Source of the DNA: Longitalea arenae
Lineage (GTDB): Bacteria > Bacteroidota > Bacteroidia > Chitinophagales > Chitinophagaceae
Length of the DNA: 64,000 nt
Assembly (NCBI RefSeq): GCF_016924755.1
Contig: NZ_JAFFJX010000005.1
Span: 62,001 to 126,000 of the forward strand
Direction: 5' to 3'
The notes beneath the pieces are model-generated. The model made no database searches and was not told where the DNA came from. It saw nothing but the letters and a program-made list of their open reading frames with translations. The position numbers were made by a program, and so were the translations under genes. Of the stretch, positions 1,311 through 62,952 are shown piece after piece (the first letter of the stretch is position 1; each line of letters begins with the position of its first letter).

Positions 1311-1533
1311 TGGATATAGATTAATTTTTTTTCATCTGTTACAACATTTCCAGCCTCAGGAGTGCAAGAACTATGCTAAGAGTGAATGGTCAATGGTGAA
1401 TAGAACCCCATTGCGAGGCTAATAACGTAATTGGGCCAGTTGAAATTTTATGAGCCCATTGCCCATTGCCCATGCACCAAAATAAAAAAACCCTGCCCAA
1501 AATAGACAGGGTCGAGCTATTTTTTACAATATA
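1311..1533. repeat. Intergenic gap with heptamer word repeats
   Basis: The gap between secG and mltG carries two short runs with a 7-bp period. Around 1386-1405 the word ATGGTCA/ATGGTGA is repeated, and around 1455-1474 the word CCCATTG occurs in near-perfect tandem. The secG terminator follows at 1484-1513. I see no open reading frame with coding character here. Confidence 0.6.
1484..1513 (-). terminator. Rho-independent terminator of secG
   Basis: Read on the minus strand, a stem ACCCTG/CAGGGT with a loop of about ten bases is followed directly by seven T residues. It lies about 20 bases past the secG stop, so it probably ends the secG transcript and separates it from mltG. Confidence 0.8.
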
Positions 1534-1863
1534 TTATTTCGCCGGAGGGGGTGTATTTTGTAAAGGTGAACCACTGGCAGGAGCGGGGGCTGATGTCGCC
1601 GGCCTTGCATTTACCGGTTCGCGGCTGCTGCTTTTACCCTCGGGGATAAAAAATGCCGAAAACAGGCATAACAGGGCAATTGCAATTGCCATAACCCAGG
1701 TACCTTTTTCCAGTACATCGGTTGTTTGTTTTACGCCCATGAACTGGCTATTGAAACCGGCAATATTACCGGCCAATCCGCCGCCTTTGGGGTTTTGGAT
1801 CAGGATAAACAACCCGATGGCCACACTAGCTATAATTATAAGTACCAGGAACAAATAGATCAT
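1534..1863 (-). CDS. secG: Preprotein translocase subunit SecG
   Basis: A 109-residue accessory subunit of the SecYEG channel. It has two membrane helices (about residues 2-21 and 55-73) joined by the conserved loop IQNPKGGGLAG, which is diagnostic of SecG in Bacteroidota. The tail after the second helix is rich in Pro, Ala and Ser and is probably disordered. The gene starts one base after the stop of the upstream 518-residue gene, so the two are almost certainly co-transcribed. A strong terminator follows. Placement next to lptE, a sigma-54 activator and miaB is, to my knowledge, a common gene order in Bacteroidota. Confidence 0.95.
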   Translation of the reverse strand: MIYLFLVLIIIASVAIGLFILIQNPKGGGLAGNIAGFNSQFMGVKQTTDVLEKGTWVMAIAIALLCLFSAFFIPEGKSSSREPVNARPATSAPAPASGSPLQNTPPPAK

Positions 1864-1864
1864 T

Positions 1865-3421
1865 TCACTGTGCTTTTAATTGTTCAATTCTGCCCGCAAA
1901 ATAAGGGCTTTTGGCGGGATTAAGCAAACTTAATTTCTCGTACACCCGGATGGCTTTGGCGGCATTTCCCTGCTTGGCCCAAACTTCGGCCATGGCTTCG
2001 GTGACCACCTCTTTTTCTTCAACCGAATGTTCTGCAATGCGCTGAATACTCTGATTGGTCACTTCGTCGAGCGAAGTGGTGGATTCAATGGGGCCCCCGA
2101 TGCGTTTCATACTGCGCAGCCAGTCGGTAAAACTTTTCATTTTTTTACCCAGCCGGTCTTTCATGTCATCCTGCATCAGTTTAACGCCCTGGGATGCAAA
2201 ATAATCGATGGTATGATAGGATTCAAAGATCGGTTCGCCAAGGTCAACGGTGGTCTGATCAGGCCTTCCGCCAGCGCTTTCGGCTGCCGGTTGTTCCGGA
2301 ACAGCAGCCGGCGGCCGCACGCCTGTATTGTCGATCACAGGCTCTGCTGTGGCAGGCTGCTCTGTTTCTGCTGTAATGGCGGCGGGTTCTTCTGTAACAG
2401 TTTCGTTAAGGGCAGCAACTGGTTGCTCTTCAGGGGCAATGCCCGATGCTGCGCTTTCATCGATGGCGATCTCCGCCGGCGGCATTTCGCTGTTTTCCGG
2501 CGAAACTTCCCCCAGCTTTTGCTCCGTTGCAGTATCGCCGATGGCGGCCATCTCCCCGGGGGCCAGCTCCACAGCCGGCACCACTTCATCCTGTTCCCTC
2601 GCTTTTTCTATGTCCAGGGGTGTGGCTTCTATAGCGGGGATGATCGCATCTTCGGTGCGCGCCTGCTCGAGTTCCAGCGGGGTCACTTCCACGGCGGGAA
2701 CTATTTCATCCTGTTCCCTCGTCTTTTCTATTTCCAGCGGCGTTGCCTCTACGGCGGGAACAATTTCATCAAATTCCGGCGTATCGATACCTGCAGCAGG
2801 GGGCATCGCTTCTTCTGTGATGCTTACTGCATGCAGGGCTGCTTCGTTGATGTTTTCTTCTGCCAGCTCACTGTTCTCTGCAATGGCTACGGCGGAAGCG
2901 GTTGCTATGGTCGCTTCTTCGGTTTGCTCCAGGGCGCCCGGTTCGGTAGCTGTTTCTTCAGCCTGCGCCAACTGTTCCACCAGTGAGCCTTCTTCATTCA
3001 CCTGCAAACTGGTAGCTGCTGCTGGTGATCCAGGAGCGCTCGCTGCGGCTGCTTCTTCCGGCTTTTCTTCGGTGGCAGGCGGGTCTGTATATACCGGCTG
3101 ACCTGTTTTAGGCATTTGTACCACGATCCGGAACCCTGGCTGCTGCATCGGCTCTTCTGCCTTTGTAAGGGCAGGGGCCTCTTCTTTCTGCTCTAATTGC
3201 CAGCGCAGCCATAAGGTATTATGAAAGTATAATGAAGCGTTCTCGCATTGTTCATGATTATTGTAGGAACCACTGTCCTTAAGCTTTTTAGCATACAGGA
3301 ATTGGCCTACGGCTGCATAGGGATATTCTTCAGTGAACTGCTTCAGTTCCTGCACGGTCACCTGCTCAAAGGAGTCTTTATCGAACAGGTGTTTTACCAG
3401 TGTTTGGATGTGATATTGCAT
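1865..3421 (-). CDS. TPR-like protein with a long acidic, repeat-containing linker
   Basis: A 518-residue protein with no signal peptide. The first ~85 residues look globular and helical (KHLFDKDSFEQVTVQELKQF). The last ~90 residues look like TPR helices (AMAEVWAKQGNAAKAIRVYEKL). Between them lies a very Ala/Glu/Pro-rich linker of about 300 residues, probably disordered. Within it, residues 218-291 are a tandem 20-residue repeat starting DEIVPAVE: three full units and one partial, with 60-bp units visible in the DNA. Proteins of this layout often sit between secG and lptE in Bacteroidota. I do not know a demonstrated function. Long reading frames on the opposite strand are composition shadows of the linker. 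Confidence 0.75.
   Translation of the reverse strand: MQYHIQTLVKHLFDKDSFEQVTVQELKQFTEEYPYAAVGQFLYAKKLKDSGSYNNHEQCENASLYFHNTLWLRWQLEQKEEAPALTKAEEPMQQPGFRIVVQMPKTGQPVYTDPPATEEKPEEAAAASAPGSPAAATSLQVNEEGSLVEQLAQAEETATEPGALEQTEEATIATASAVAIAENSELAEENINEAALHAVSITEEAMPPAAGIDTPEFDEIVPAVEATPLEIEKTREQDEIVPAVEVTPLELEQARTEDAIIPAIEATPLDIEKAREQDEVVPAVELAPGEMAAIGDTATEQKLGEVSPENSEMPPAEIAIDESAASGIAPEEQPVAALNETVTEEPAAITAETEQPATAEPVIDNTGVRPPAAVPEQPAAESAGGRPDQTTVDLGEPIFESYHTIDYFASQGVKLMQDDMKDRLGKKMKSFTDWLRSMKRIGGPIESTTSLDEVTNQSIQRIAEHSVEEKEVVTEAMAEVWAKQGNAAKAIRVYEKLSLLNPAKSPYFAGRIEQLKAQ
2549..2770 (-). repeat. In-gene 60-bp tandem repeat (20-residue units)
   Basis: Inside the TPR-like gene, residues 218-237, 238-257, 258-277 and 278-291 repeat the pattern D-E-I-V-P-A-V-E-x-T-P-L-E-I-E-x-x-R-E-Q. 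The units have diverged by point changes but keep their length, which suggests duplication followed by selection for an amphipathic, acidic spacer. Confidence 0.85.
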
Positions 3422-3430
3422 TATACCAGC

Positions 3431-4003
3431 TTACCAGTTTGAAAAAATACGGTTGAAAATTTCGTCCACCACGTTTTTGACGATGGTCTCATTTAACTGG
3501 GCCTCTGCCTGCGTGATCGTCAGGTTGGCCGAATAGTCGAAGTTACGGGAAACATCGGCTTCAAAGTTCTTAGAGGGGTCTAAGTTGTTTTTAAAAACAA
3601 CGTGCACCGTTACGGTAAGGCGTTGCCCGGCGGCCTGCTGGTTCGAGATGGCCGATGTAGTTACATTATAGCCGGTGATGGTGCCCCCGATATCGTAATG
3701 GGCATCATCGGTTTGCACGCCGGTTAAGCGGGTTTGGCCGGTGATCTTCTGCCTTAAGCGGTCGGTTATCTGCGGACTTAAGATGGGGTTCACATACCGG
3801 GCCCTGTTCTCAATTAATTGTACCCGGTAGGTCTTTACATCCTGGGGTATGGAACCAATGTCCTTGAAACTATAACAACCGGCAAACAGCAGGACAATCG
3901 GCAATAGACAATAGACAAGAGTTGCAGGTAATCTCCGCCGCGCCGGACGGGTTTCAGGGTTTTGGTCCCTGTAACCTGTAACTTGCAACCTGTTACCTGC
4001 CAT
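3431..4003 (-). CDS. lptE: LptE-family LPS-assembly lipoprotein
   Basis: LptE plugs the LptD barrel in the outer membrane and helps deliver LPS to the surface. The mature part fits the family: a lipobox LLFAGC, then CYSFKDIGSIP, a 'LSPQITDRLRQKITGQT' helix, and the strand pattern DIGGTITGYNVT. I start it at the ATG at 4003. The longer frame to 4036 would overlap the sigma-54 activator gene. From 4003 the lipobox Cys is residue 43, with an unusually long charged n-region. That n-region and part of the hydrophobic core are encoded by heptamer repeats (3899-3918 and 3968-4001). The family is confident but the start is uncertain. Confidence 0.85.
   Translation of the reverse strand: MAGNRLQVTGYRDQNPETRPARRRLPATLVYCLLPIVLLFAGCYSFKDIGSIPQDVKTYRVQLIENRARYVNPILSPQITDRLRQKITGQTRLTGVQTDDAHYDIGGTITGYNVTTSAISNQQAAGQRLTVTVHVVFKNNLDPSKNFEADVSRNFDYSANLTITQAEAQLNETIVKNVVDEIFNRIFSNW
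3899..4001. repeat. Heptamer word repeats lying inside the 5' end of lptE
   Basis: Two runs are visible. CAATAGA occurs twice in tandem at about 3902-3915. At 3968-4001 there is a series CTGTAAC, CTGTAAC, TTGCAAC, CTGTTAC. They resemble the intergenic word repeats elsewhere in the window, but here they fall inside the reading frame and encode most of the lipoprotein signal region. Confidence 0.75.
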
Positions 4004-4019
4004 TATTGATTTCAATTTC

Positions 4020-5264: not shown

Positions 5265-5522
5265 TTGACTACTAATTTTTTCAGATACCCCCTGCAGTTA
5301 TCATCAATGATCTTGCATGAAGGTGATCCGGATTATTTTAATCAGGGCCATGCCCTGTATGTATTAATTATAAATGCCCTTTTGTAGTATAGGGCCGGTT
5401 GATCGCAGTTGGCCGTCTGGAGCTGGCAGTTTGCCGTTTATTATTGAACATTAGCAACAAGATTACGGATTGGCGGGTTGTTGCAAACAGCTAATTGCAA
5501 ATTGCCAATTGCTAATTGTTTT
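5265..5522. repeat. miaB-activator gap with heptamer words
   Basis: The gap has no reading frame of interest. At about 5489-5518, next to the miaB stop, the words CTAATTG, CAAATTG, CCAATTG and CTAATTG run with a 7-bp period. This run could also fold weakly and act as the miaB 3' end. Confidence 0.7.
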
Positions 5523-6953: not shown

Positions 6954-6976
6954 CAACAATTCAGTTTTTGGGATGG

Positions 6977-8388: not shown

Positions 8389-8608
8389 TTCAACAAACAA
8401 TGTCAGCTTGTTCAATAAACAATGTCAGTTTGTTCAATAAACAATACCTCTTTATTCAATAAACTGCACCTGATCGTTCAATAAACCATATGTGATCGTT
8501 CAATAAACCATACCTGATCGTTCAATAAACTGTATCTGATCGTTGAATAAACTGTACCTGTTTGTTCAATAAAATGTGTTTGTTTGTTCAATAAAAATAA
8601 GTGCAAGT
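8389..8608. repeat. 22-bp tandem repeat array, ten units
   Basis: Ten consecutive units start at 8389, 8411, 8433 and so on to 8587, each exactly 22 bp. The first ten bases are nearly fixed as TTCAATAAAC. The last six are TGATCG in four central units and drift to TGTTTG or similar at the edges. The centre varies. More degenerate copies can be traced upstream to about 8323. Because 22 is not a multiple of three, it is not a protein repeat. It sits in a divergent promoter region with no replication or CRISPR gene nearby. Confidence 0.9.
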
Positions 8609-8730
8609 AATTCATAATCACAGCTGGTTGCATGGAAAGTGCCTTCTTTCTGCCCTGTTTACTGCTGTTATTCAGCCCCCACTCATCGAATCATCAAAAT
8701 ACCACGACAAAAACGTCAAAAAGGGACTTA

Positions 8731-8775
8731 AGTTAGTCTATGTGAGCATAAGTGAGTCTAAGTGAGTCAACCGGA
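8731..8775. repeat. 10-bp-period word repeat (AAGTGAGTCT)
   Basis: AGTTAGTCT, ATGTGAGCAT, AAGTGAGTCT and AAGTGAGTCA follow in register with a 10-bp spacing in the same gap as the 22-bp array. Confidence 0.65.
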
Positions 8776-11311: not shown

Positions 11312-11357
11312 AATGGTCAAAGCTAAATGGTCAATGGTAAATGGTCAATGGTCAATC
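11312..11357. repeat. Heptamer word repeat (ATGGTCA)
   Basis: ATGGTCA, AATGGTCA, ATGGTAA, ATGGTCA and ATGGTCA follow each other upstream of the TolC gene. The same word appears near 1386-1405, some 10 kb away. Confidence 0.75.
11318..11325 (-). promoter_or_regulatory. Candidate -7 box for the TolC gene, inside a word repeat
   Basis: TAGCTTTG on the minus strand matches TAnnTTTG and lies 31 bases before the TolC start. It interrupts a heptamer run (ATGGTCA words, about 11312-11357), so a chance match is possible. Confidence 0.45.
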
Positions 11358-12125: not shown

Positions 12126-12442
12126 AGTCTTAGATCTGGGTTCTTAGTTTATAGTTGCTGGTTTCAAATTACAGTTTCAGTAAAGTTGGCCAGGTTCTGC
12201 ATTTCATTATCACATTAGCTAATTATCACATTATCACATTAACCACATGCCAGTTTATAGTCTGGTGATTTGCAATATACTATAAGGGATTTGCAGTTAC
12301 ATCCGTTTGTTTTCGATACAGGAACTGTACGGTTTCGATACAGGTGAATGGTCGTTGGTGAACTGCTCGCGAAATTTGAAACCGGTAACCAAATCGAGCC
12401 GCCACCCCGGTTCTATTTGTATTTCATTATCAAATTATCACA
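12126..12442. repeat. 317-bp gap with octamer words
   Basis: The words ATTATCACATT, ATTAGCTA and ATTATCACATT run at about 12203-12243 with a period of 7-8, and a second short run of the same word is at 12423-12445. TTTCGATACAGG occurs twice (12312 and 12334). No gene or clear promoter is seen. Confidence 0.6.
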
Positions 12443-14869
12443 TTACTCCGTACGTAAACTCTTCACCGGGTTCATGATAGCTGCTTTTATCGTTTGGAAG
12501 CTAACAGTAACAATAGCGATGCCGGCGGCCAGCGAACCGGCCATGATGAACACCCACCAACTGATCGGTGCGCGGTAGGCGAAGTCCTGTAGCCAGCTGT
12601 ACATGATCCACCAGGCCAGGGGAAAGGCAATGACAGCTGCAATGATCACCAGTTTCAAAAAGTCTTTCGACAGCATGGCGGTTATATTACTAACAGTAGC
12701 GCCCAGCACTTTTCTGATACCGATCTCTTTCGTGCGTTGCTCTGCCGCATAGGCTGCCAGTCCGAACAAGCCCAGGCAGGCGATCAGGATGGCCAGCACC
12801 GAAAATGTAATGGCTATGGCCCCCATTCGTTGTTCGGTGCGGTACTGGTTATTGAAATCTTCATCCATGAAAGTAAGATCAAAGGGCGCGCCCGGGGCTA
12901 TTGCTTTGTATAAGTGTTCTATCTTGGCGAGCAGGTTAGGGAGGTGTTTCGACTTAATACGCAAGGCAACATTTCCCTGGTTCTCACCCAGCATTAATGC
13001 GAGGGGCGTAACGTGTTGCCGCAAACTGCTGAAGTTAAAATCCTTTACAATACCAACGATATGCAGCGCAGAAACCTCCGCGGGCTTGTTAATATCCCTG
13101 ATGAAATAAAGGGATTTCCCAATGGGATCTGTAAAGCCATACATTTTTGCAGCGGCTTCGTTTATAATGATTGCACTTGAATCGGTCGGGAACTGTTTTG
13201 AGAAATTCCTGCCCGCCACCATTTCCATTCCGAGGGTAGGGATGTACTGATCATCCACATCCCAGGTTTGCATGGATACGGCTCTTCTTCGATCGAGGGT
13301 TGGATCGGCAAATACGGGGTTGTCGTTCCGCCAGCTATTTGTAGGCAGATAGCCCGAGATCGTAGCATTTTCAACGCCTGCTAATTTCACTACTTCCTCA
13401 GTGAACAACCTGGCTTTACTGCCGAGTGGACCGCTGTTGTGGATGATCGCCACCTGATCCCGGTTAAACCCGGGTTTATGTGATTGAATAAAATGAAGCT
13501 GTTTATAAATTACGATGGTGGCAATGATAAGAACAATGGAGATCACAAACTGGAAAACGACCAGGCTGCTGCGTAACCAGCTTCTTTTAAAACCCCCGGC
13601 CAGTTTACCTTTAATGACCTGTATGGGTTTGAAAGAGGAGAGGTAAAAGGCAGGATAACTGCCGGCCAGCATACCGGTGATCAATACCAGCAATAATAGA
13701 ATGGGGATCAGCCAGGGGGTTGCCCGGAAATTTAATGTAATATTTTTTGCTGCCAGATCATTGAAGTAGGGGAGCATGGCAAAGGTAAGCAGCAGGGCCA
13801 GCACCAGGGCCATGCAACTGATGAGCATACTTTCGGTAAGGAATTGCTTTACCAGGTTTGACTTTAATGAACCCAATACCTTGCGCACGCCTACTTCACG
13901 CGCCCGGTTGGCAGAACGGGCCGTTGACAGGTTCATGAAATTTACGCAGGCAATAAGCAAAATAAAAAAAGCGATGGCCGAAAAAATATATACATACTGA
14001 ATGCTGCTGGTGGCGCCCAGTTCGGCAATTTTATCAGAATGCAGGTGAATGCTGGTAAGAGGCGTTAAAGAATGCTTTACATGGCTGCCGCTTTTTTTAA
14101 GATCGTCGAGGCTGGCCGACAAGAACTGCCGCACCTGTGGCCCTAAATACTTTATTACCAGGGCGTCGAATTGCGCTTCGATCTGTTTGGGATTGGCGCC
14201 TTCTTTCAAAACCACATACGTATTGAAGTTGTTGCTTAACCAGTTGTTTCGCCGGCTTTCTTCCAGGGTGGCAAGCGATACGAAAATGTCGAACTTAAAA
14301 TGCGATTGGGAAGGAATGTCCTGAATAACACCGGTAACCTTATAGGTATGCTGATTGTCGACCAGGAAGCTTTTACCCACTGCCTGCGTGGTATTGAAAT
14401 ATTTACGGGCGGTGGTGGCAGTTAGTACGAGGCTGTTCGGCTCCTGTAAGGCTGTTTTGGCATCCCCATCGAGCATGGGTAAGGTGAATACATCGAATAG
14501 CGTGGAATCTGCATAGACCACTCTGTTCTCCTGCACATTTTCATAGTCTTTTTTAAGCAGCAGGCCACCGGCACTTCTGAAACGCACGAACTGCTCTATC
14601 TGCGGAAAATCTTTTTTGAGGGTTGGGCCCATCGGGTCGGGCGTTACGGCAGAAATGAAGTGATTACCGGCAAATTTTATATCGGTATCTACCCGGTAGA
14701 TGCGATCTGCTTTTTTATTATGGCGGTCATAACCCAGCTCATCGAGCACAAACAGCATAATGAGCAAACAGGTTGCCAGTCCAATGGCCAGTCCGATTAT
14801 GTTGATCGCCGAAAAGCCCTTGCTTTTCCAAATTTTGCGGAAGGCGATCTTTAAATAATTTTTTATCAT
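12443..14869 (-). CDS. MacB/FtsX-family ABC permease 1 of the array
   Basis: An 808-residue permease with two FtsX-type halves. It opens MIKNYLKIAFRKIWKSKGFSAIN and a first membrane helix near residues 20-43. A MacB-type periplasmic domain comes next, then three helices. The coupling segment REVGVRKVLGS is near residue 327. A central helix leads to a second periplasmic domain and three last helices, with KEIGIRKVLGA near residue 716. It ends MNPVKSLRTE. Unlike E. coli MacB it has no fused ATPase and carries the FtsX module twice. Such proteins move substrates out of the periplasm by mechanotransmission rather than through a pore. It is nearest to the second ATPase, across a 317-bp gap. Confidence 0.9.
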   Translation of the reverse strand: MIKNYLKIAFRKIWKSKGFSAINIIGLAIGLATCLLIMLFVLDELGYDRHNKKADRIYRVDTDIKFAGNHFISAVTPDPMGPTLKKDFPQIEQFVRFRSAGGLLLKKDYENVQENRVVYADSTLFDVFTLPMLDGDAKTALQEPNSLVLTATTARKYFNTTQAVGKSFLVDNQHTYKVTGVIQDIPSQSHFKFDIFVSLATLEESRRNNWLSNNFNTYVVLKEGANPKQIEAQFDALVIKYLGPQVRQFLSASLDDLKKSGSHVKHSLTPLTSIHLHSDKIAELGATSSIQYVYIFSAIAFFILLIACVNFMNLSTARSANRAREVGVRKVLGSLKSNLVKQFLTESMLISCMALVLALLLTFAMLPYFNDLAAKNITLNFRATPWLIPILLLLVLITGMLAGSYPAFYLSSFKPIQVIKGKLAGGFKRSWLRSSLVVFQFVISIVLIIATIVIYKQLHFIQSHKPGFNRDQVAIIHNSGPLGSKARLFTEEVVKLAGVENATISGYLPTNSWRNDNPVFADPTLDRRRAVSMQTWDVDDQYIPTLGMEMVAGRNFSKQFPTDSSAIIINEAAAKMYGFTDPIGKSLYFIRDINKPAEVSALHIVGIVKDFNFSSLRQHVTPLALMLGENQGNVALRIKSKHLPNLLAKIEHLYKAIAPGAPFDLTFMDEDFNNQYRTEQRMGAIAITFSVLAILIACLGLFGLAAYAAEQRTKEIGIRKVLGATVSNITAMLSKDFLKLVIIAAVIAFPLAWWIMYSWLQDFAYRAPISWWVFIMAGSLAAGIAIVTVSFQTIKAAIMNPVKSLRTE

Positions 14870-14995
14870 GGATAAATCTGGTTTGATCTTTCTTTTTGTG
14901 AATGCTTCGCTTTCACCGGGCGTGTTGCCGGTTTCAGGTTCCAGCTCATTTGTATTTTTACTGCCCTGTAACCTGGAACTTGAACCCTGTAACCC
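14870..14995. repeat. Inverted pair of heptamer words between permeases 1 and 2
   Basis: TTTCAGGTTCCAG (about 14934-14946) is answered by CTGGAACTTGAA (about 14970-14981), a near-perfect inverted pair. CTGTAAC words flank the second arm. If transcribed it could form a hairpin between the two permease genes. Confidence 0.65.
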
Positions 14996-17407
14996 TTATT
15001 CGCTTCTCAATGCTTTCACGGGGTTGGCTACCGCTGCTTTTATCGCTTTATATCCTACCGTTATCCAGGCGATCAGGATAGAACCTGTAATTGCGGTAAT
15101 GAAGAACCAGGCGTTTAAAGGCACACGGTATACAAAATTGTTCAGCCAGTTATGCATCATATACCAGGCAACGGGTACGGCTATAAAGAATGCTACAATG
15201 ATCAGCACGGTAAATTCTTTCGAGAACAACTGCAGGAGGCTGGTAATGGAAGCGCCCAACACTTTGCGAATGCCCACTTCCTTGGTCTTTTGCACGACCA
15301 TAAAAGAAACCAGTCCGTACAAGCCCAGGCAGGAAATGAAAATGGCCAGGCCTGCGAAAATCTTATACAGCAGCGACAGTTGTTCTTCCTGCCGGTAGAA
15401 CCGGGCAATTTGCTCTTCGAAGAAAGAAGGCGCAAAGGCATAGTCGGGGTAGAACTGGTTCCAGCTTTTTTCAATGGCGGCCCTGGTTGCCATCATTTGG
15501 CTGGTGCGCAATTTGATGGCTAAGCGGGTATAAAAATCTTTTTGCGTTGAAATGAACAGTGGTTTGATATCATCCCGCAGGGAATGTGTTTTAAAATCCT
15601 TTACCACGCCTACAATAGGGTACCACTTACCATTGCCGAGTTTAATGGTTTTGCCAATGACCTCATGGGGATTTTTTACACCCAGCTTTCTTACGAGGGT
15701 CTCGTTGATGATCCCTTCGCGTAGGGTATCGCTGGGTTGAATCGGGCGGCCGGCTACCAGCTGCAATCCAAATGTTTTCAGGTAATCGGCATCTGCATAT
15801 TTCAGCGCGAGCTGGTATTTTTCATCTGGTTGGTGATCATATGCGAAATTCGTGGTCCACATATTTTCTGAAGAAGGCTCATCGGTGCTGAAACTTACCG
15901 ATTGCACACCCGGTATTTGTAAGAGCTGCCGTTTAAAAGCATCTTCTTTCGACAGCGAAGCGCTGTCGGCGCTTACATTCATAATTAACACACTTTCTTT
16001 TTGAAAGCCCAGGTCGGCTTTGCTGATGAAATTCATCTGGCTTACCGCAACGGCGGTGGCAATGACCAGGATCTGTGAAATGGTGAACTGCATGACCACC
16101 AGTCCTCTTCGCAGGGAGACGCCGTGAACACTGGCTGATACCATTCTATTCTTCAGGGCCGTGATGGGATTGAACTTTGACATCACGAACGAAGGATACA
16201 AGCCGGCCAGTAAAATGACCACAGCGCCGATGCCGCCTACCATACCCATTGTTGTTGGCGTAAACAGGCTGAGCGGTTCCTCGATAGAAGCTATGTGTTT
16301 TATGTAGGGCAGCACTAAATAAGCGATGCAAAGAGCAACTATAACAGCGATGCATACAATGCCCGTAGTTTCGCTCATGACCTGTTTAAACAATTGCATA
16401 CGGTTGCTGCCCAGTACTTTCCGGATGCCCATTTCTTTTGACCGGTTAACGGCCAGGGCTGTAGACAGGTTTATAAAGTTCACACATGCCATGAGAATAA
16501 TAAATACGCCGATCAGCAATAAAGTGACGAGGGTCGACCTGCTGGTCACATGATCGGCAAAGGATTCGAAACGGCGGTCGAAATGCATCTCCGCCAGGGG
16601 TTGCAGGAAATTTGTCTTTATGGAATTGCCACGCAACGGTTCATAGTGCGTTTTACTGAATTGTAATAAGGCCCTGTTCATATCTGCCGCTTTCATACCT
16701 GGCGGCAGCAATGCAAAGATGTTGAAGTTGCTGGAGGTGTTGTTCCAGCTGTCATAATGGCCATACGCTTCGCCGTATTGTTGCAGGGTAGCAAATGATA
16801 CGAGTACCCGCAAAGGCAGGTTTGAATTGGCCGGCACATTTTGCAGAATGCCGCTTACTTTCAGTGGGATGAAATTGTCGAGCGTTATGGTTTTGCCAAT
16901 GGCCTGCTGCCAGCTGCCAAAATATTTGCCGGCTGTTCTTTCGTCCAGTACCACATGGTTAGGATCCTTCAATGCCGAAGGGCCGCCGGCCAGCCAGTGA
17001 TAGGTAAATACTTCGAAAAGCTGTGGTTCCAGATAGAAGATACCGCTTTCTTCGATGAACTTGTTACCGGCGCCGTTATTGGCGGAAGGCACCGTGATCT
17101 GGCTGCCGTAGATAGAACGCAGGGCCCCAAATTGGATGTTCGGTAATTCCACGCGTAATGCTTTAAGGGCCGGCACCGGAATGCCACTGTTGGTGGTGAT
17201 ATCCTTGTCGAATTTGTCCTGTGTAACTACCCGGTAAATGCGATCGTAATTCGGTTGAAATGTATCATAACTCATTTCATATTGCACTACGATGAACAGG
17301 AGCAAACTTGCGGCAATACCGACGGATAATCCGGTTATATTGATAAAAGAGAACGCCTTGTTGCGGACAATACTGCGCCAGGCCGTCTTTAAATAATTAC
17401 TGAACAT
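14996..17407 (-). CDS. MacB/FtsX-family ABC permease 2 of the array
   Basis: An 803-residue paralogue of its neighbours with the same plan: MFSNYLKTAWRSIVRNKAFSF, first helix, MacB-like periplasmic domain, FtsX module with KEMGIRKVLGS near residue 328, and a second half with KEVGIRKVLGA near residue 711. It ends VANPVKALRSE. The second periplasmic part differs most from its neighbours, which would fit different ligands or partners. It is separated from permease 3 by 71 bases and from permease 1 by 126 bases. Co-transcription is likely but the gaps contain possible hairpins. Substrate unknown. Confidence 0.9.
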   Translation of the reverse strand: MFSNYLKTAWRSIVRNKAFSFINITGLSVGIAASLLLFIVVQYEMSYDTFQPNYDRIYRVVTQDKFDKDITTNSGIPVPALKALRVELPNIQFGALRSIYGSQITVPSANNGAGNKFIEESGIFYLEPQLFEVFTYHWLAGGPSALKDPNHVVLDERTAGKYFGSWQQAIGKTITLDNFIPLKVSGILQNVPANSNLPLRVLVSFATLQQYGEAYGHYDSWNNTSSNFNIFALLPPGMKAADMNRALLQFSKTHYEPLRGNSIKTNFLQPLAEMHFDRRFESFADHVTSRSTLVTLLLIGVFIILMACVNFINLSTALAVNRSKEMGIRKVLGSNRMQLFKQVMSETTGIVCIAVIVALCIAYLVLPYIKHIASIEEPLSLFTPTTMGMVGGIGAVVILLAGLYPSFVMSKFNPITALKNRMVSASVHGVSLRRGLVVMQFTISQILVIATAVAVSQMNFISKADLGFQKESVLIMNVSADSASLSKEDAFKRQLLQIPGVQSVSFSTDEPSSENMWTTNFAYDHQPDEKYQLALKYADADYLKTFGLQLVAGRPIQPSDTLREGIINETLVRKLGVKNPHEVIGKTIKLGNGKWYPIVGVVKDFKTHSLRDDIKPLFISTQKDFYTRLAIKLRTSQMMATRAAIEKSWNQFYPDYAFAPSFFEEQIARFYRQEEQLSLLYKIFAGLAIFISCLGLYGLVSFMVVQKTKEVGIRKVLGASITSLLQLFSKEFTVLIIVAFFIAVPVAWYMMHNWLNNFVYRVPLNAWFFITAITGSILIAWITVGYKAIKAAVANPVKALRSE

Positions 17408-17424
17408 ATTTTTTCCTTTATTTG

Positions 17425-17478
17425 AATCAGCACATCAGCTAATCAGCACATCAGCTAATTAGCACATTAGCTAATTGT
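17425..17478. repeat. Octamer word repeat (TCAGCACA/TCAGCTAA)
   Basis: Six 8-bp words alternate TCAGCACA, TCAGCTAA, TCAGCACA, TCAGCTAA, TTAGCACA, TTAGCTAA in the gap between permeases 2 and 3. The same words in reverse complement recur at 30020-30071 and 33578-33656, and a related GCTGATGT/GCTGATTT run is at 41399-41490. Confidence 0.9.
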
Positions 17479-19878: not shown

Positions 19879-19903
19879 GCGTCTTTGATCGTGATTGTAA
19901 ATG

Positions 19904-22267: not shown

Positions 22268-22315
22268 AGTCTTGCTTTTTGATTCTTAATCTTGACCTTA
22301 ATCGTTTAAAAGATG

Positions 22316-22410
22316 CTGTTGCCAGTTACCGGTTTCCGGTTACCGCCCTGTTCGGTGAAGGAAGCGGGTGCGGTTTGTATTTCCCGGTAACGGGTAACTG
22401 GTACCCGGTA
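22316..22410. repeat. Inverted heptamer words (GGTTACC type) between permeases 4 and 5
   Basis: CCAGTTACCGGTTTCCGG near 22323 is answered by GGTAACGGGTAACTGG near 22386. CCAGTTACC and GGTAACTGG are perfect nine-base reverse complements. The words belong to the same family as the larger run at 50336-50490. Confidence 0.75.
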
Positions 22411-22414
22411 CCAG

Positions 22415-24850: not shown

Positions 24851-24866
24851 GGCTAATGTTTTGGCC

Positions 24867-27194: not shown

Positions 27195-28553
27195 ATGTTA
27201 TTGAAGAATGCTACCATACTTGTGATCGATGATGATGTGGATGTGCTAACGGCTGTGCGGCTGCTGTTGAAAACAGAAGCAAAGGAAGTTGTGACTGAAA
27301 AGAATCCGGAGAATCTTCGCTGGTTATTATCGAAACAAAGCTTTGATGTGATCCTGCTTGATATGAACTTCAATAGTTCGATCAATACCGGTAACGAGGG
27401 TTTGTTCTGGTTGAAGAAGGTGAAAGAGTTTAAATCGGAGGCGGCCGTGATCATGATAACGGCCTATGGCGATATTGACCTGGCGGTGCGTTCGCTGAAA
27501 GAAGGGGCTGCTGATTTTGTAGTAAAGCCCTGGCACAACGAAAAGCTGATCATAACGATAAAGGATGCGCTAAAAAGAAAGGAAAGCAAATCCAGTTCAC
27601 CGCCTGTACGCAGCAGCGATTCCATTATAGGCACCGAGTTGCTGGGTGAGTCAGATATAATGGCCGATATTTTTTACAAGATCGAAAAGATCGCACCTAC
27701 CGATGCCAATATTCTTATTCTTGGCGAGAACGGAACCGGTAAAGACCTGATAGCAAAAGCCATTCACCAGCATTCATTACGCGCCAAAAAAGCCTATGTA
27801 AAAGTGGATGTAGGCGCGCTTACGGAAACCCTCTTCGAAAGTGAGCTGTTTGGTCATAAGAAAGGGGCTTTTACCGATGCGCGGGAAGACCGCGTAGGCC
27901 GTTTTGAAGCGGCCAATGGCGGTACCCTTTTTCTCGATGAGATCGGCAATATCTCGCTGCATCAACAGGCCAAATTATTAAGTGTATTACAAAACCGCCA
28001 GGTGATCAGGCTGGGTACGAACGATCCGGTGCCTGTTGATATCCGGCTTATTTGCGCTACCAATGTGCCGCTGGCAGAACTGGCGAATGAAAGCCGTTTT
28101 CGCAAAGACCTTATTTACCGCATCAATACGGTAGAGATCATGGTGCCGCCCTTACGAAAAAGAGGCAACGATATTATTCTGCTGGCAAAATATTTCAGCC
28201 AGTTGTACAGCAACAAGTACCTGAAGCCGGTAATGGAATTCGATGATAAGGCGATCGAGAAATTGCTGAACTATCATTTTCCCGGTAATATCCGCGAGTT
28301 GCAGTATACGATTGAACGGGCGGTGATCATGTCAGACGGGCATGAGCTGCAGGCGACTGACCTTATCTTTTCACCGATTGAATCTTCCTCTGCCCGCGAA
28401 AAAGAACCCGATGAGCTGAACCTAAGCGCCGTGGAAAAGAATACCATTCTGCATGTTATTGAAAAGCACAATGGCAATATTACGCGCGCTGCGAAGGAAC
28501 TGGGATTAACTCGAACGGCGCTGTACAGACGATTGAGTAAATACGATATCTAA
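27195..28553 (+). CDS. NtrC-type sigma-54-dependent response regulator
   Basis: A 452-residue regulator with three parts. The receiver domain has the acidic pocket DDD at residues 12-14, the phosphorylation site D56 in VILLDMNF, and Lys in FVVKPW. The AAA+ domain has Walker A GENGTGKD, a sigma-54 loop reading GAFTDA instead of GAFTGA, Walker B TLFLDE, and FPGNIRELQ. A Fis-type HTH ends it (ITRAAKELGLTRTALYRRL). It is paired with the histidine kinase gene 122 bases downstream and divergent from the ABC exporter operon. Control of that operon is an inference from this arrangement. Confidence 0.93.
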   Translation: MLLKNATILVIDDDVDVLTAVRLLLKTEAKEVVTEKNPENLRWLLSKQSFDVILLDMNFNSSINTGNEGLFWLKKVKEFKSEAAVIMITAYGDIDLAVRSLKEGAADFVVKPWHNEKLIITIKDALKRKESKSSSPPVRSSDSIIGTELLGESDIMADIFYKIEKIAPTDANILILGENGTGKDLIAKAIHQHSLRAKKAYVKVDVGALTETLFESELFGHKKGAFTDAREDRVGRFEAANGGTLFLDEIGNISLHQQAKLLSVLQNRQVIRLGTNDPVPVDIRLICATNVPLAELANESRFRKDLIYRINTVEIMVPPLRKRGNDIILLAKYFSQLYSNKYLKPVMEFDDKAIEKLLNYHFPGNIRELQYTIERAVIMSDGHELQATDLIFSPIESSSAREKEPDELNLSAVEKNTILHVIEKHNGNITRAAKELGLTRTALYRRLSKYDI

Positions 28554-28672
28554 TGTGATAATTTGATAATGTGATAATGTGATAATTTGATAATGTGATA
28601 ATGGGATAATGAATACGGGGCGAGGGAACCACAAACGACAAACCACAAACCACAAACCACAAACAATAAAAT
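28553..28672. repeat. Octamer then heptamer word repeats between regulator and kinase genes
   Basis: GATAATGT/GATAATTT words run with an 8-bp period at 28556-28610. From about 28628 to 28668 CCACAAA/GACAAAC words run with a 7-bp period, ending four bases before the kinase start codon. Two different words share one gap. Confidence 0.9.
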
Positions 28673-30019: not shown

Positions 30020-30071
30020 TCAATGTGCTGATGTGCTAATGTGCTGATGTGCTAATGTGCTAATTAGCTAA
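30020..30071. repeat. Octamer word repeat (GCTGATGT/GCTAATGT)
   Basis: Six 8-bp words alternate GCTGATGT and GCTAATGT and end GCTAATTA between the convergent kinase gene and the next minus-strand gene. They are reverse complements of the words at 17425-17478. Confidence 0.88.
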
Positions 30072-31975: not shown

Positions 31976-32088
31976 GTTTATTGTTTGTGGTTTGTGGTTT
32001 GAGGTTATTGCCGTCTTTCGATCTCACGATCAATGGCCGGCCTAATACGCAACCAGCTCGAAACACAGAACTTAGAACTTAGAACTGT
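31976..32088. repeat. Heptamer words in the ychF leader
   Basis: GTTTGTG words occur at 31982-32001 and AACTTAG words at 32068-32083, both with a 7-bp period. Both would be in the ychF 5' untranslated leader if the box at 32099 is used. The first word is the reverse complement of the CCACAAA word at 28628-28668. Confidence 0.75.
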
Positions 32089-33577: not shown

Positions 33578-33656
33578 CGATGTGCTGATTAGCTGATATG
33601 CTGATGTGCTAATTAGCTGATGTGCTGATGTGCTAATTAGCTGATGTGCTAATGGA
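33578..33656. repeat. Octamer word repeat (GCTGATGT/GCTAATTA)
   Basis: At least nine 8-bp words (GATGTGCT, GATTAGCT, GATATGCT, GATGTGCT, AATTAGCT and so on) fill the 85-bp convergent gap almost completely. Confidence 0.92.
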
Positions 33657-41203: not shown

Positions 41204-41224
41204 ATGCGTTAGTTGGTTTCAATT

Positions 41225-41232
41225 CAAATATA
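41225..41232 (-). promoter_or_regulatory. -7 promoter box for DeoR copy 2
   Basis: TATATTTG on the minus strand lies 22 bases before the start, the same box and nearly the same spacing as for copy 1. ACGCA occurs upstream near 41257 and 41284, the latter within the shared decamer CGCATAAAAT (41285-41294). Confidence 0.55.
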
Positions 41233-41398
41233 AATTGAAATGCAGCATTAATACGCAGAAAATGGATTAAATCTGTATGAATAACGCATAAAATAGGGAA
41301 TTTGAACCATTCCTTCGTCTATTTGTGCAGGTTTTTGCAGTTATTTATTATGTAGAATGTAAAATGGAGTACTTGATAAGAAAGAAGAAGCATAGCAC

Positions 41399-41490
41399 AA
41401 TTAGCTAATGTGACAAATGGCGATGTGCTGATGTGCTGATTTGCTGATTTGCTGATTTGCTGATGTGCTGATTTGCTGATTTGCTGATGC
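41399..41490. repeat. Octamer word repeat (GCTGATGT/GCTGATTT)
   Basis: About nine consecutive words GATGTGCT or GATTTGCT follow with an 8-bp period, the most regular run of this type in the window. Confidence 0.92.
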
Positions 41491-41606
41491 GGTCATCCCC
41501 CGGCTACAAGCGGGATGTGTTGTCATAATGAATGCAGTTCCGGTGAATAGCTCTGGCTTTTTGCCATTTGCTTTAAGCGTTCAGCCTGGAGTTTTCGCCT
41601 TCCGCT

Positions 41607-50304: not shown

Positions 50305-50535
50305 GAGTTGATAAGTTAACTGGTTGAAAAGTTAACAGGTTGCCGGTTGCCGGTTACCGGTCGCCGGTTGCCGGTTACCGGTTACCAGTCGCCGGTTGCC
50401 AGTTGCCGGTTGCCGGTTACCGGTTACCGGTTACGAGTCGCCGGTTGCCAGTTGCCGGTTGCCGGTCTCCAGTCGCCGGTTGCCGCTCAACTGCGAACCA
50501 AGAACTGAGAACTGAGAAATGTGAACTGATAACTG
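50305..50535. repeat. Longest heptamer word-repeat block (GGTTGCC/GGTTACC/GGTCGCC)
   Basis: From about 50336 to 50485 some twenty 7-bp words follow each other, mostly GGTTGCC, GGTTACC and GGTCGCC. The block is preceded by AGTTAAC/GGTTGAA words and followed by GAACTGA/GAACTGT words (50498-50535). Three word types thus abut with the same period. Confidence 0.95.
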
Positions 50536-55518: not shown

Positions 55519-55608
55519 GATTTCTGATTTCGAGATTTAGAGATTTTTATATGTTCAGCCCACTAATTAAATCTCAAAATCCCGGAATCGTAAATCTCGA
55601 ATCATTTA
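55519..55608. repeat. Inverted heptamer words (GATTT/AAATC) between lptD and plsC
   Basis: GATTTCTGATTTCGAGATTT words face AAATCTC words. TCGAGATTT near 55530 and AAATCTCGA near 55592 are perfect reverse complements. In this convergent gap the pair could act as a two-way transcript end. Confidence 0.7.
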
Positions 55609-56345: not shown

Positions 56346-56379
56346 TCTAAATATTGCTTCGGTGTTCAAAGCGCAAGTT

Positions 56380-56404
56380 ACAGGTTTCAGGTTACAGGTT
56401 AGAA
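56380..56404. repeat. Heptamer word repeat (GTTACAG)
   Basis: GTTACAG, GTTTCAG, GTTACAG and GTTAGAA follow with a 7-bp period upstream of plsC. The same word in reverse complement occurs in the 5' end of lptE. Confidence 0.75.
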
Positions 56405-56507
56405 GCGGTAAATGACAGCCTTGAGGCTCAACTGAAAGCTGAAAGCCTGGAACACCGCAGAGCGCGGCAAGTGCTGCAACTTTAACCTGAGACTGCCTTC
56501 CATACTT

Positions 56508-57920: not shown

Positions 57921-57988
57921 GCCGCTGCCACTGCCATTTGCCAACTGCTGCTGCCATTTGCCAACTGCGAATTGCCAACTGCCGATCT
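57921..57988. repeat. Heptamer word repeat (TGCCAAC/TGCCATT)
   Basis: TGCCATT, TGCCAAC, TGCTGC, TGCCATT, TGCCAAC, TGCGAAT, TGCCAAC and TGCCGAT follow in order between the sigma and FecR genes. Confidence 0.9.
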
Positions 57989-59179: not shown

Positions 59180-59251
59180 GAGAAACCTATATAATTATTA
59201 ATGATTGATAAACCCAGCAATATGATCAAGTTACCACCATAAAAGAACAGG

Positions 59252-59293
59252 CAAAAAAAGAGCCCCGATATTGTTCGCACCAATATCAGGGCT
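59252..59293 (-). terminator. Minus-oriented terminator inside a plus-strand operon
   Basis: AGCCCCGATATTG and CAATATCAGGGCT (59261-59293) form a 13-base stem with one mismatch. The T-tract (seven T) follows it only on the minus strand. All genes here read plus, so it may stop antisense transcription or act as an RNA hairpin between fecR and susC. Confidence 0.75.
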
Positions 59294-59378
59294 GCAGATG
59301 ATTTGTCCTGCGGATCTTACGCAGCGGGACAAATATTGATTAAAACTGATTGCTTTAACCAACTAATAGTACAAAACT

Positions 59379-62300: not shown

Positions 62301-62873
62301 GGGCCCGATGGAAAACCCGATGGATTGATCACAGCTGACGACAGAACCTTTATTGGTAATTATCTGCCTGATTTTACCTACTCCGTAAACTTTTCGGGCA
62401 CCTATAAGAACTTTGATGCATCCCTGTTCTTCCAGGGTGTACAGGGGAACAAGATCTTTAATGCCACCCGCATCATCACCGAAGGGATGGCCCGTTTATT
62501 CGGGGCTGGTACCGAAGTGTTGAATGCCTGGACGCCTTCCAACACCAATACCAATATTCCGAGGGCGATCAGCGGCGATCCGAACCAGAATGTTCGTCCA
62601 TCTACACGATGGATCGAAGACGGATCCTATCTGCGGTTGAAGAATATTGTTATAGGATATACCGTTCCCGGTACTTTCCTGCAATCGGTGACCAAAGGAG
62701 CTGTAAGCAATATAAGAGTGTACATTTCATCACAGAACCTGTTAACCTTTACCAAATATAAAGGATGGGATCCTGAGATCGGGACAAAGAATACCACGCT
62801 TACCAATGGGATAGACTATGGACAGTATCCGGCTGCCCGTTCTTTCCAATTCGGTATCCAGGCAGGTTTTTAG
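59379..62873 (+). CDS. SusC/RagA-family TonB-dependent receptor with STN signalling domain
   Basis: A 1164-residue receptor-importer. After the signal peptide (to about residue 38) an STN domain spans about 50-115 (DKKEMKTVLSEISQLADIKFVYSSQRIP). This is the part that talks to FecR. A carboxypeptidase-regulatory-like domain follows (ITGKVVNENGEPLNGVSVLVRGTNRGTSTNEKGVF), then the TonB box region EVIIVGYGTQRR. The plug reads ALQGRVAGLSV, VRIRGVSSISF, VIDGFPTGN and VLKDASAAAIYGSRATNGVI, and a long barrel ends SFQFGIQAGF. Together with the sigma/FecR pair it forms a substrate-induced uptake system. The ligand is unknown. Confidence 0.96.
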   Translation: MKKVLVNQLIYRFMRIGLLPLLLITGFAGMMYARPVHGQEVLNQRINLVADKKEMKTVLSEISQLADIKFVYSSQRIPAKQKISFVARNQRLGDVLNILLSPLNILYFVSGNQIVLMRKGETYNVAMFLTDDPRQLLMEEEAPAKTITGKVVNENGEPLNGVSVLVRGTNRGTSTNEKGVFVITAEVGETLSFSMVGYREYAVKVGDEDNITIRLQAEQTNMNEVIIVGYGTQRRSTLTGAIASVNNKTINELPVASVEQALQGRVAGLSVTNNGTPGTSPLVRIRGVSSISFASDPLYVIDGFPTGNLIHFDSRDIETVEVLKDASAAAIYGSRATNGVIIITTKKGKKDNKLKVQLDSYIGTQKAWNTLDLLNTEQYLRYERALNGAANIDLPPRLEPANFNQPIYNGTTQTYAQTNTDWQDAYFKSGIITQHNLAVSGGNDLSRFYSSAGYFKQDGIAQGVYYERGNFRINSEHRISKVFSFGENLYTAYSKQRYDATTDNRTRLMNVIRQLPYMPVYDPTTQGGFRDAENSVDGADPTNPVMDAILLGNSYRKNLKILGTAYAEVNFTPWLKFKSTFGVDHVALNQHNYDPIFNSKGRSASLATIADVRTNFTTLLFTEQLTFDKTFGDHHLALTAVYEQQTTKASGSQQGGNQTSNGIETLVGAINASSFSTQSENELISYVGRVNYEFAGKYLLSAAIRRDGLSVWAPGNKFANFPSASVGWRVNQESFMQGVKNISELKIRAGYGETGLNGIGIFAALPNSQLPNDYPWQAVVLQNGALYPFNNTIPTGGNASFYNALANPDLEWEKTKQLNIGVDLGLLGNRISLSADYYRRKTDNLMLSVPTPTSFGFGGGGVLANVGSMENNGLDLQLTYSQKQREFKWDITGNISFISNKVIHLNTPNATIDQGGDQDFGGGAPITRTMAGQPIQSYLGYIVEGIFQTQAEVDASPFQTTGTRPGDLRFKDISGPDGKPDGLITADDRTFIGNYLPDFTYSVNFSGTYKNFDASLFFQGVQGNKIFNATRIITEGMARLFGAGTEVLNAWTPSNTNTNIPRAISGDPNQNVRPSTRWIEDGSYLRLKNIVIGYTVPGTFLQSVTKGAVSNIRVYISSQNLLTFTKYKGWDPEIGTKNTTLTNGIDYGQYPAARSFQFGIQAGF

Positions 62874-62877
62874 GTCA

Positions 62878-62952
62878 ATAGTGAATGACTCATTTGACTG
62901 ATATGACCAATTTGACTTCTTTGACCGATTTGACTTCTTTGACTCATTTCAA
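62878..62952. repeat. 9-bp word repeat (TTTGACTNN) between SusC and SusD
   Basis: TTTGACTGA, TATGACCAA, TTTGACTTC, TTTGACCGA, TTTGACTTC and TTTGACTCA follow with a 9-bp period. The words carry TTGAC, which could be mistaken for promoter elements. Confidence 0.88.

Follow-up and report, generated by a model that had tools for sequence, protein, structure and literature searches.

Tandem 7-8 bp words between genes of Longitalea arenae as candidate arms of gene-end hairpins

Short words repeated in tandem occur between many genes in the 64,000-nucleotide stretch of DNA analysed here (the window), and the question they raise is what such runs are and how they arise. The sequence comes from Longitalea arenae, a member of the Niastella/Longitalea clade of the Chitinophagaceae, and the hosts of these runs are soil bacteria. 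We consider it about an even chance that the runs are arms of hairpins at gene ends, or single such arms, grown by slippage, matched to each other by template switching and perhaps acting as bidirectional terminators.

Arrays were scored with +1 per match and -2 per mismatch over periods 5-13, with a cut-off of at least 10 in the window. Genes were called with a home-made caller, whose starts are approximate, and all counts concern gaps of at least 20 bp. The window presents 20 arrays in 16 of its 36 called gaps (7,189 bp of gap in total), of which twelve have period 7, seven period 8 and one period 10, versus a mean of 0.3 arrays in 100 dinucleotide shuffles and a maximum of 2 in a second 100. 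Hence, the tandem words of 7-10 bp reported by the initial annotation are real, but its statement that they fill nearly every gap was too strong. Tandem Repeats Finder places arrays at or beside the positions it quoted (3893, 5481, 8729, 11312, 17425, 28551, 28627, 30022, 31983, 33579, 41422, 50338, 56377, 57931 and 62886), while the quoted position 1386 holds no array itself, only the inverted partner of the array at 1454. The features are presented in Table 1.

Table 1. Arrays and inverted pairs of the window, with observations on individual sites (G codes denote other genomes).
Positions	Words and copies	Period	Gene context	Further observations
1385..1473	Inverted pair AATGGTCAATGG (1385-1396) and GCCCATT x2.9 (1454-1473)	7		Inverted score 10, under the counting cut-off of 12
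3893..3918	GACAATA x3.7	7	At 5' end of - gene 3431-3904 as called	
3968..3999	CCTGTAA x4.6	7		
5481..5518	TTGCAAA-type	7	4 nt from stop, - gene ending 5523	
8729..8768	TAAGTGAGTC x4	10		
11312..11356	AATGGTC x6.4	7/14	About 25 bp upstream of - gene 9944-11287	
12205..12241	CATTATCA x4.6	8		
12426..12445	ATTATCAA x2.5	8	At stop of - gene 12443-14869	Preceded by TGTATTTC (AATACA motif, other strand)
14964..14996	CCCTGTAA-type	7, with indels	At stop of - gene 14996-17407	
17425..17475	ATCAGCAC/ATCAGCTA	8/16	3 nt from stop, - gene ending 17479	RNA fold z of gap -5.29
22322..22412	Inverted pair GTTACCG (22322-22344) and GGTAACG (22386-22412)	7	Right arm 2 nt from stop, - gene ending 22415	Inverted score 13; RNA fold z of whole gap only -1.65
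28551..28611	TAATGTGA x7.6	8/24	Starts at stop codon, + gene 27195-28553	Without inverted partner
28627..28664	AACCACA x5.4	7	11 nt ahead of + gene called at 28676	
30022..30071	AATGTGCT x6.2	8/16	Directly 3' of stop 30019	Without inverted partner
31976..32006	GTTTGTG	7	Directly upstream of ychF-like - gene 30871-31968	Corresponding site in six further genomes of the genus: AACTTAG-type words, partly degenerate
32067..32086	AGAACTT x2.9	7	Same gap as the GTTTGTG array	
33579..33654	GATGTGCT/AATTAGCT x9.5	8/24	Directly 3' of stop 33576	By eye: G007 expanded, G006 with a different 8-mer variant, G003 very short, no array in the remaining six genomes of the genus
41422..41488	GATTTGCT x8.4	8		Same gap: 8- and 7-mers in G007, GCTGCAA (7) in G003, GTTGATAAA (9) in G005
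50338..50485	GGTTGCC/GGTTACC x21	7/49		Gap in G007 shorter, without scored array
50489..50535	AACTGAG x6.7	7	1 nt from stop, - gene ending 50537	
55519..55601	GATTTAGA arm (55526-55546) and AAATCTC arm (55569-55589)		Convergent gap	RNA hairpin -22.8 kcal/mol, z -4.65
56377..56453	Inverted pair GTTACAG (56377-56401) and CTGAAAG (56432-56453)	7		Inverted score 13
57921..57968	CTGCCATTTGCCAACTGCTG x1.9 (7-like subunits)		Directly 3' of stop 57920	By eye: other words in G007, G003 and G005
62886..62949	TTTGACTTC-type	9	Gap after stop 62873; genes here presumably a SusC/SusD-like pair	

When the cut-off was set at a score of at least 12 for positions 1-400,000 of the contig that contains the window (C35), 73 intergenic arrays were found, compared with 0.05 in 20 shuffles, so the enrichment over shuffled intergenic DNA proposed earlier as a check is clear. 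Their periods are 7 (31 arrays), 14 (14), 8 (24), 9 (3) and 11 (1), i.e., 69 of the 73 have period 7, 14 or 8, and none of these intergenic arrays has period 5, 6, 10, 12, 13 or 15. Coding sequence of the same 400 kb holds 6 arrays versus 0.33 in 3 shuffles. Arrays are likewise found in G005, a genome in a single contig, as well as in other genomes and additional genera (e.g., G018), with wide differences in abundance from genus to genus. The array and shuffle counts refute an origin in sequencing or assembly errors, or in chance within low-complexity intergenic DNA, and we give such an origin practically no weight: shuffles yield almost no arrays, the single-contig genome and other genera carry them as well, and no point was found in its favour.

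The arrays favour the ends of genes. Fifty-eight of 350 arrays lie 0-3 nt from a stop codon versus 12.1 expected, and 5 of 350 lie 0-3 nt from a start versus 6.9 expected, where the expectations presume uniform placement within the array's own gap. Among gaps of at least 50 bp, the share with arrays is 0.26-0.42 for convergent, 0.12-0.29 for tandem and 0.08-0.15 for divergent gaps, an order found in all five data sets. When counted per kb of gap, arrays are equally frequent in convergent and tandem gaps of G003 (0.57 and 0.58). Ten proteins of the window, scanned against Pfam, proved to belong to ordinary, unrelated genes, and these neighbours hint at no function. All-frame stop cassettes were rejected as an explanation: three-frame stops are present on the sense strand in 52 of 126 stop-edge arrays and on the antisense strand in 25, and given that 32 of the 126 have no sense-strand stop at all, such stops are at most a by-product.

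Hairpin counts were restricted to 228 of the 261 array gaps, namely those of up to 700 bp with arrays of period 7-9 and enough sequence beside the array. The word recurs inverted in its own gap in 112 of the 228, in comparison with 19.2 when the sequence of other gaps is used (at most 29 gaps in 30 draws) and 7.2 when it is shuffled; with palindrome-like words left out, the values are 101 of 199 gaps and 17. For the 66 of the 112 hairpins whose word has at least two family members elsewhere, the local partner is a better match for the arm than partners of the same word at other loci in 55 cases and a worse one in 8, with 3 ties. The loop measures about 50 nt, and both arms lie at most 40 nt from the gap edges in 48 of the 112. 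Two values count against the hairpin reading: 116 of the 228 gaps have no inverted partner at the cut-off, and the word recurs in direct orientation, too, more often than expected (45 versus 18.4). Within the window, an inverted partner scoring at least 12 was found for only 5 of the 20 arrays, two of which (41422 and 50338) pair with neighbouring array-like sequence. In terms of RNA folding, the median z ranges from -2.3 to -3.5 for gaps with arrays versus -1.0 to -1.8 for gaps without them in four sets, the array-free gaps being likewise more structured than shuffles. At Rfam gathering scores, the only known RNA family found in the window is a tRNA.

Comparison between species indicates how the runs change. 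Several window arrays contain multi-unit blocks (16, 24 and 49 bp) whose identity is above that of single units, and copy number differs by at least 0.5 unit in 15 of 18 same-word comparisons between our genome and G007, which agrees with the earlier proposal of a repeat-forming process with a preferred step of 7-8 bp. Considering orthologous gaps of at least 40 bp in one or both species, array sites persist between these two genomes with an odds ratio of 8.5 (p 8e-6; 9.2 when stratified by gap length; counts 18/9/16/68, or 19/9/17/73 with other cut-offs and short gaps kept). Persistence is borderline for our genome and G005 (p 0.05) and for G007 and G005 (p 0.06), and not significant for our genome and G003 (odds ratio 1.4, p 0.6; stratified 2.1). 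At shared sites the word is kept, with at most one mismatch, in 14 of 18 cases in the close pair with G007, and in 13 of 61 over five more distant pairs that have genomes in common (3/9, 1/11, 3/18, 4/11 and 2/12); 38 of the 61 show at least three mismatches or another period. Conservation base for base between species, named earlier as the outcome expected of ordinary regulatory sequence, was not seen among the gaps listed.

These results are consistent with arrays that would grow by replication slippage or unequal exchange in steps of 7-8 bp, the second arm being presumably written and corrected by template switching inside the inverted repeat, a process that makes inverted-repeat arms more alike (PMC8604942, as excerpted). 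Gain or loss of whole hairpins as blocks may occur now and then. With less certainty, the hairpin, once transcribed, may end transcripts in both directions or stabilise their 3' ends, in which case selection would keep its fold rather than its sequence. The initial annotation had suggested templated or slippage-driven growth; the 7-8 bp step fits this, yet simple slippage leaves the inverted arm, the start at stop codons, the shared words and the AATACA motif unaccounted for.

Intrinsic terminators consist of a GC-rich stem followed by a T run, and convergent hairpin gaps mostly differ: a canonical terminator is present in 8 of 33, versus 59 of 106 array-free convergent gaps (p 0.0024). Where the array of a convergent gap is unpaired, the count is 12 of 25, and tandem gaps present no substitution (11 of 69 versus 105 of 539, p 0.63). 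The scarcity in convergent hairpin gaps argues against a reading that we hold possible yet doubtful, namely that the arrays are a functionless mutational by-product of 7-8 bp slippage and template switching in unconstrained DNA, the spot after the stop being merely where nothing else is needed. Free word turnover, the many arrays without partner and the wide variation in abundance among genera suit such a by-product, as do the divergent, promoter-bearing gaps, whose low share of arrays would be expected if arrays are tolerated only where harmless. It is nonetheless at odds with the persistence of sites in three of six species pairs (p<0.02), with a 5' arm that is usually G/T-rich (78 versus 23 of 112 hairpins), and with words common to separate loci.

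As to the words themselves, 293 of 6,329 pairs from different gaps are identical, compared with 16.2 for letter-shuffled words, and GATGTGCTGATGTGCT yields 263 partly overlapping genome matches with at most one mismatch versus 0 for its reversed control. The observation that words differ yet recur between loci is thus borne out, whereas the claim that each gap has its own word was overstated, as different gaps have words in common. Outside the words, gaps of our genome share 21 13-mers in 11 gap pairs, versus 4.6 in 3.7 pairs after shuffling. One longer common stretch is among these; the others are mostly word remnants.

On their loop side, 33 of 350 arrays carry the hexamer AATACA, versus 3.7 in shuffles and 2.1% for windows drawn at random from array-free gaps, and the motif adjoins arrays of different words in four genomes. 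On the outer side it is found in 6 versus 2.6, where 20 nt were reached by 201 of 350 outer and 347 of 350 inner flanks. Arrays with the motif number 8 of 212 at period 7 and 24 of 126 at period 8. The complement, too, is more frequent on the loop side than expected (15 versus 3.7). Shared words and the motif are not accounted for by template switching alone. Mobile, REP-like tagged palindromes would supply both, if an enzyme recognised AATACA plus hairpin and spread the arms to the ends of genes, with words as subfamilies; gaps filled or empty in block-like fashion (own-contig 119180 and 121180) would also fit. We regard this as unlikely, given that the rest of the gaps in our genome shares little beyond word remnants, that the motif is found in a minority of arrays and its complement is in excess too, and that a changing recognition sequence is ill-suited to a known transposase. 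Y1 (IS200-like) transposases, counted without regard to flanks, number 1-3 matches in each of ten genomes of the genus despite very different word counts; on these counts and the little shared outside the words, RAYT-driven spread appears unlikely.

It appears very improbable that the arrays bind a protein or an RNA chaperone whose footprint spans 7-8 nt, an idea offered for TAACTGA repeats (PMC4679880, as excerpted). The fixed step of 7-8 and, by eye, AAC in phase across species in the ychF-like leader suit such binding, but the words have little in common, word and period change at orthologous sites, and no inverted arm would be needed. Loss of SbcCD was rejected as the cause. SbcD exceeds the cut-off, with weak partial matches uncounted, in none of 10 genomes of the genus, one of 14 further members of the family and five of 15 further members of the order; of five sampled SbcD-less family members, three have almost no arrays, G012 has some and G018 many. 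As array counts vary in this way, SbcCD loss is at most permissive.

Filamentous cyanobacteria carry short tandemly repeated repetitive (STRR) sequences, which are strictly heptameric tandem repeats of fixed words between genes, and we know of no inverted gene-end architecture among them. The likeness to STRR drawn earlier holds for intergenic tandem heptamers only (period 7 or 14 in 45 of the 73 arrays of the 400 kb): here 24 of the 73 have period 8, the words are many, and the geometry is closer to that of the GGGAATC heptamers of Xanthomonas, which are the closest known system. In the available portions of PMC4692102, these repeats (GGGGA(C/T)T in Nostoc) are intergenic, vary in length and sequence by species, are under-represented between divergent genes, lie mostly 0-50 bp from the stop on the coding strand when downstream, and form 70 and 75 convergent pairs with inverted-repeat potential in two Xanthomonas genomes. 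Nearness to stop codons and inverted pairs are thus common to both systems. Whereas Xanthomonas is described there as having a single G-rich, quadruplex-forming word with variants, many 7 and 8 bp words coexist here, the common ones (e.g., AATGTGCT, AACCACA and AACTTAG) lack three-G runs, and locus-matched arms, word replacement at kept sites and the AATACA motif set our arrays apart.

The TAACTGA direct repeats of Beggiatoaceae, Cyanobacteria and some Bacteroidetes resemble ours as gap heptamers, several per gap, missing from close relatives; stops in all three frames are mentioned for them (PMC4679880, in part). According to that text, however, they consist of a single word, mostly upstream of starts; related words are seldom seen, and a single indirect repeat is reported for the main genome. 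Here the words are many, and TAACTGA doublets number 0 on either strand of five data sets (about 2.37 Mb). For long simple sequence repeats (Mrazek 2007, via PMC4692102 and PMC4679880), units of 5-11 with 7 the most frequent and polymerase-linked slippage were proposed; inverted pairing and word replacement at fixed sites are absent from that second-hand description. REP/RAYT elements, in the excerpts of PMC3733652, are GTAG-tagged intergenic palindromes of fixed families with a terminal tag, often touching stops. Ours are likewise intergenic palindromes with a short fixed motif, often at stops, but the word is free, differing between and within genomes, and the motif is on the loop side. Also in Bacteroidota, the BrickBuilt MITE of Porphyromonas gingivalis combines tandem repeats with inverted ends between genes, as one family with a 23-bp unit in 19 copies, 49-591 nt from genes (PMC4596501, in part), unlike the many 7-8 bp words here. 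The literature searched, partly by titles and abstracts, yielded no account of inverted arrays with multiple words in Chitinophagaceae.

A more general proposal is tentative and somewhat improbable: genome-wide gene-end hairpins may inherit their fold alone, with a word that would be exchangeable, even in length, if both arms are rewritten together, coupled slippage and template switching doing the writing and the hairpins replacing canonical terminators between convergent genes. Given that the clade combines many loci and words, fast turnover and close relatives, the growth step, arm correction and word replacement should be readable from strains, and the prevalence of 7-bp repeats in bacteria, left unexplained in the parts of PMC4692102 and PMC4679880 available, becomes testable here. 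Should transcripts end at the hairpins, these would be terminators with a conserved fold but no conserved sequence, of a kind that homology-based annotation would overlook. The clade is hence a good case for studying repeat growth and a possible role of such repeats in ending transcripts.

Arrays, i.e., tandem runs of short words between genes, were scored (threshold at least 10) in stretches of two contigs of the 7.28 Mb Longitalea arenae genome that contains the window, C35 (400 kb, with the window) and C11 (800 kb), and in 370-400 kb from each of three other genomes of the Niastella/Longitalea clade: G007 (taken to be L. luteola), G005 (a single contig of 9,033,684 bases) and G003 (taken to be N. 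caeni). By Gate-domain protein, the nearest named relatives are Niastella populi, Longitalea luteola and Niastella caeni, in a comparison that may omit the L. arenae genome itself and very near ones. The initial annotation proposed a repeat-forming process that should exceed shuffled intergenic DNA, and this held in every data set, with 42-105 arrays against 1.2-3.6 in shuffled gaps (C35, 90 vs 1.8; C11, 100 vs 3.6; G007, 105 vs 2.0; G005, 42 vs 3.2; G003, 46 vs 1.2). Coding sequence has few tandem words (6 vs 0.33 shuffled), in contrast to their abundance between genes. Periods cluster sharply at 7, 8 and multiples of both, and a scan of periods 2-24 at a score of at least 12 gave no arrays with periods 2 to 6 in the gaps of any of the five data sets. 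Arrays are roughly twice as dense in C35:1-400,000 (1.55 per kb of gap) as in C11:1-800,000 (0.73). A separate array at 8389-8595, within a 1.1-kb gap that precedes the gene at 9098, has about nine 22-bp units (TTCAATAAAC...) and differs from the 7/8-mer arrays in both period and word.

Arrays adjoin stop codons: among 350, 58 lie 0-3 nt from a stop (12.1 expected) and 43 lie 4-10 nt away (21.1 expected), while the corresponding counts from a start are 5 (6.9 expected) and 19 (12.1 expected). In all five data sets, array frequency is highest in convergent and lowest in divergent gaps; in G003, the densities per kb of convergent and tandem gaps are equal. The sense strand is G/T-rich in 81 vs 33 stop-edge arrays and A/C-rich in 36 vs 13 start-edge arrays. 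On the minus strand of the window, 12443-24901 holds five genes in a row of about 790-830 aa each, and of the four intervening gaps three have word arrays; the two proteins scanned, from 12443-14869 and 17479-19878, match MacB_PCD and FtsX.

The strongest array of each of 228 gaps was searched for matches within its gap, with other gaps of the same species as control. Inverted matches were found in 112 gaps (19.2 expected), or in 101 of 199 vs 17 without words resembling their own complement, and direct matches in 45 (18.4 expected). Across the 112 hairpins the median loop is 51 nt, the 5' arms comprise 78 rich in G/T and 23 rich in A/C, and 48 hairpins have both arms no more than 40 nt from the gap edges. 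The clearest pairs in the window are listed in the table. The 17425 array folds by itself as RNA (z -5.29) because the palindromic unit AATTAGCT is mixed with GATGTGCT. Two results count against the hairpin reading: the fold of the full gap 22268-22414 has only a weak advantage over shuffles (z -1.65), and 15 of 20 window arrays are without a partner scoring at least 12.

Arm pairs and arrays compared between genomes
Feature	Window position	Genome(s)	Words or arms	RNA fold z
Clear pair	55519-55601			-4.65
Clear pair	22322-22412		inverted arms	
Clear pair	56377-56453		inverted arms	
Upstream of ychF-like gene		L. arenae, G006, G007, G003	AACCACA-type words	
Upstream of ychF-like gene		G001, G002, G004, G005, G008, G009	AACTTAG-type words, some degenerate	
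Gap	41204-41606	L. arenae	GATTTGCT, period 8	
Gap	41204-41606	G007	8- and 7-mers	
Gap	41204-41606	G003	GCTGCAA, period 7	
Gap	41204-41606	G005	GTTGATAAA, period 9	

Arms are matched locally: for the 66 hairpins whose family has two or more other hairpins elsewhere, the partner from the same locus was the better fit in 55, the poorer in 8 and an equal one in 3. Read from array to motif, AATACA flanks 33 of 350 arrays on the loop side (shuffles give 3.7; among random windows of array-free gaps, 2.1% have it), and its complement flanks 15 there (3.7 from shuffles). On the outer side, where flanks are shorter, each occurs 6 times (2.6 and 1.3 expected, respectively). The words that precede the motif are 8-mers and, mainly in G003, the 7-mer AAGC words. 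Counting both orientations, 44 of 112 hairpin gaps have it, vs 24.7 (95% range 17-32) for array-free gaps of matched length. The main rival explanation is that arms disperse between loci, yet the remaining gap sequence has little in common between gaps. In G007, a locus downstream of the Gate gene (L011) has several blocks of about 58 bp, with 8-mers ending in AATACA; this is an expanded version of the counterpart gap in the window, which has a single GATGTGCT array.

Between L. arenae and G007, arrays are present in both gaps in 18 cases, in the former only in 9, in the latter only in 16 and in neither in 68, i.e., an odds ratio for site persistence of 8.5 (9.2 when stratified by gap length). 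The word is kept in 14 of the 18 shared sites, and in 3/9, 1/11, 3/18, 4/11 and 2/12 for five more distant pairs, two of which show significant site persistence. Copy number turns over, differing by at least half a unit in 15 of 18 comparisons of same-word arrays between L. arenae and G007. Upstream of the ychF-like gene, AAC recurs in phase every 7 nt across both word types, as judged by eye. No array was scored in the N. yeongjuensis equivalent of gap 41204-41606. Some hairpins appear to be blocks present in one species and absent from the other, e.g., about 180 bp directly after the stop in G007, missing from L. arenae at contig gap 121180; other differences are patchy rewrites.

Arrays may grow by slippage or unequal exchange: in several arrays of the window, repeated blocks of 16, 24 and 49 bp show higher identity to one another than single units do. 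Arm agreement would be kept by template switching, described for imperfect inverted repeats in the portions consulted of PMC8604942 and PMC7202029. This hairpin model leaves the shared words and the AATACA motif unexplained. The SbcD nuclease attacks hairpins; SbcD scored above the family cut-off in none of ten genomes of the genus and in one of 14 other family genomes searched.

Vocabularies are unlike from lineage to lineage. Doublets of GATGTGCT match 263 times in L. arenae, 38 in G007, 15 in G006 and 0-4 in the remaining seven genomes of the genus. Those of AACCTGT match 24-187 times in each of the ten and 0-3 in 29 others searched (at most 4 for the reversed control). Around one gene, arrays per kb of gap number 1.44 in Niastella/Longitalea (8 named loci, two from G007 and G003), 0.15 in Pedobacter (25 arrays at 39 loci, compared with 7.7 after shuffling) and 1.63 in Pinibacter (1 locus). 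For five further genera of the family (80 kb each), values are 1.55 in G018, 0.55 in G012 and 0-0.13 in the other three. By eye, G018 gaps likewise have inverted arms at their edges, with distinct words. Some Pedobacter and a Sphingobacteriaceae MAG (L102, L123, L124, L092, L137, L128) carry rare heptamer arrays (TAGTCCA, TAGTCCG, GTTTAGG) that are long and nearly pure, whereas Niastella arrays are short and mixed.

The heptamer step is already covered by TAACTGA repeats, according to the part consulted of PMC4679880, and by long simple repeats. Xanthomonas GGGAATC repeats have the same geometry but one word, as far as the part consulted of PMC4692102 describes them. No description of multi-word, locus-matched, word-exchanging arrays was found in the literature searched.

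In tandem gaps, canonical terminators number 11/69 vs 105/539, and a terminator role is unsupported there. In convergent gaps, they are found in 8 of 33 with a hairpin, 12 of 25 with an unpaired array and 59 of 106 without arrays. Together with position and folding, these fewer canonical terminators point, less firmly, to a putative role of the hairpins as two-sided terminators.
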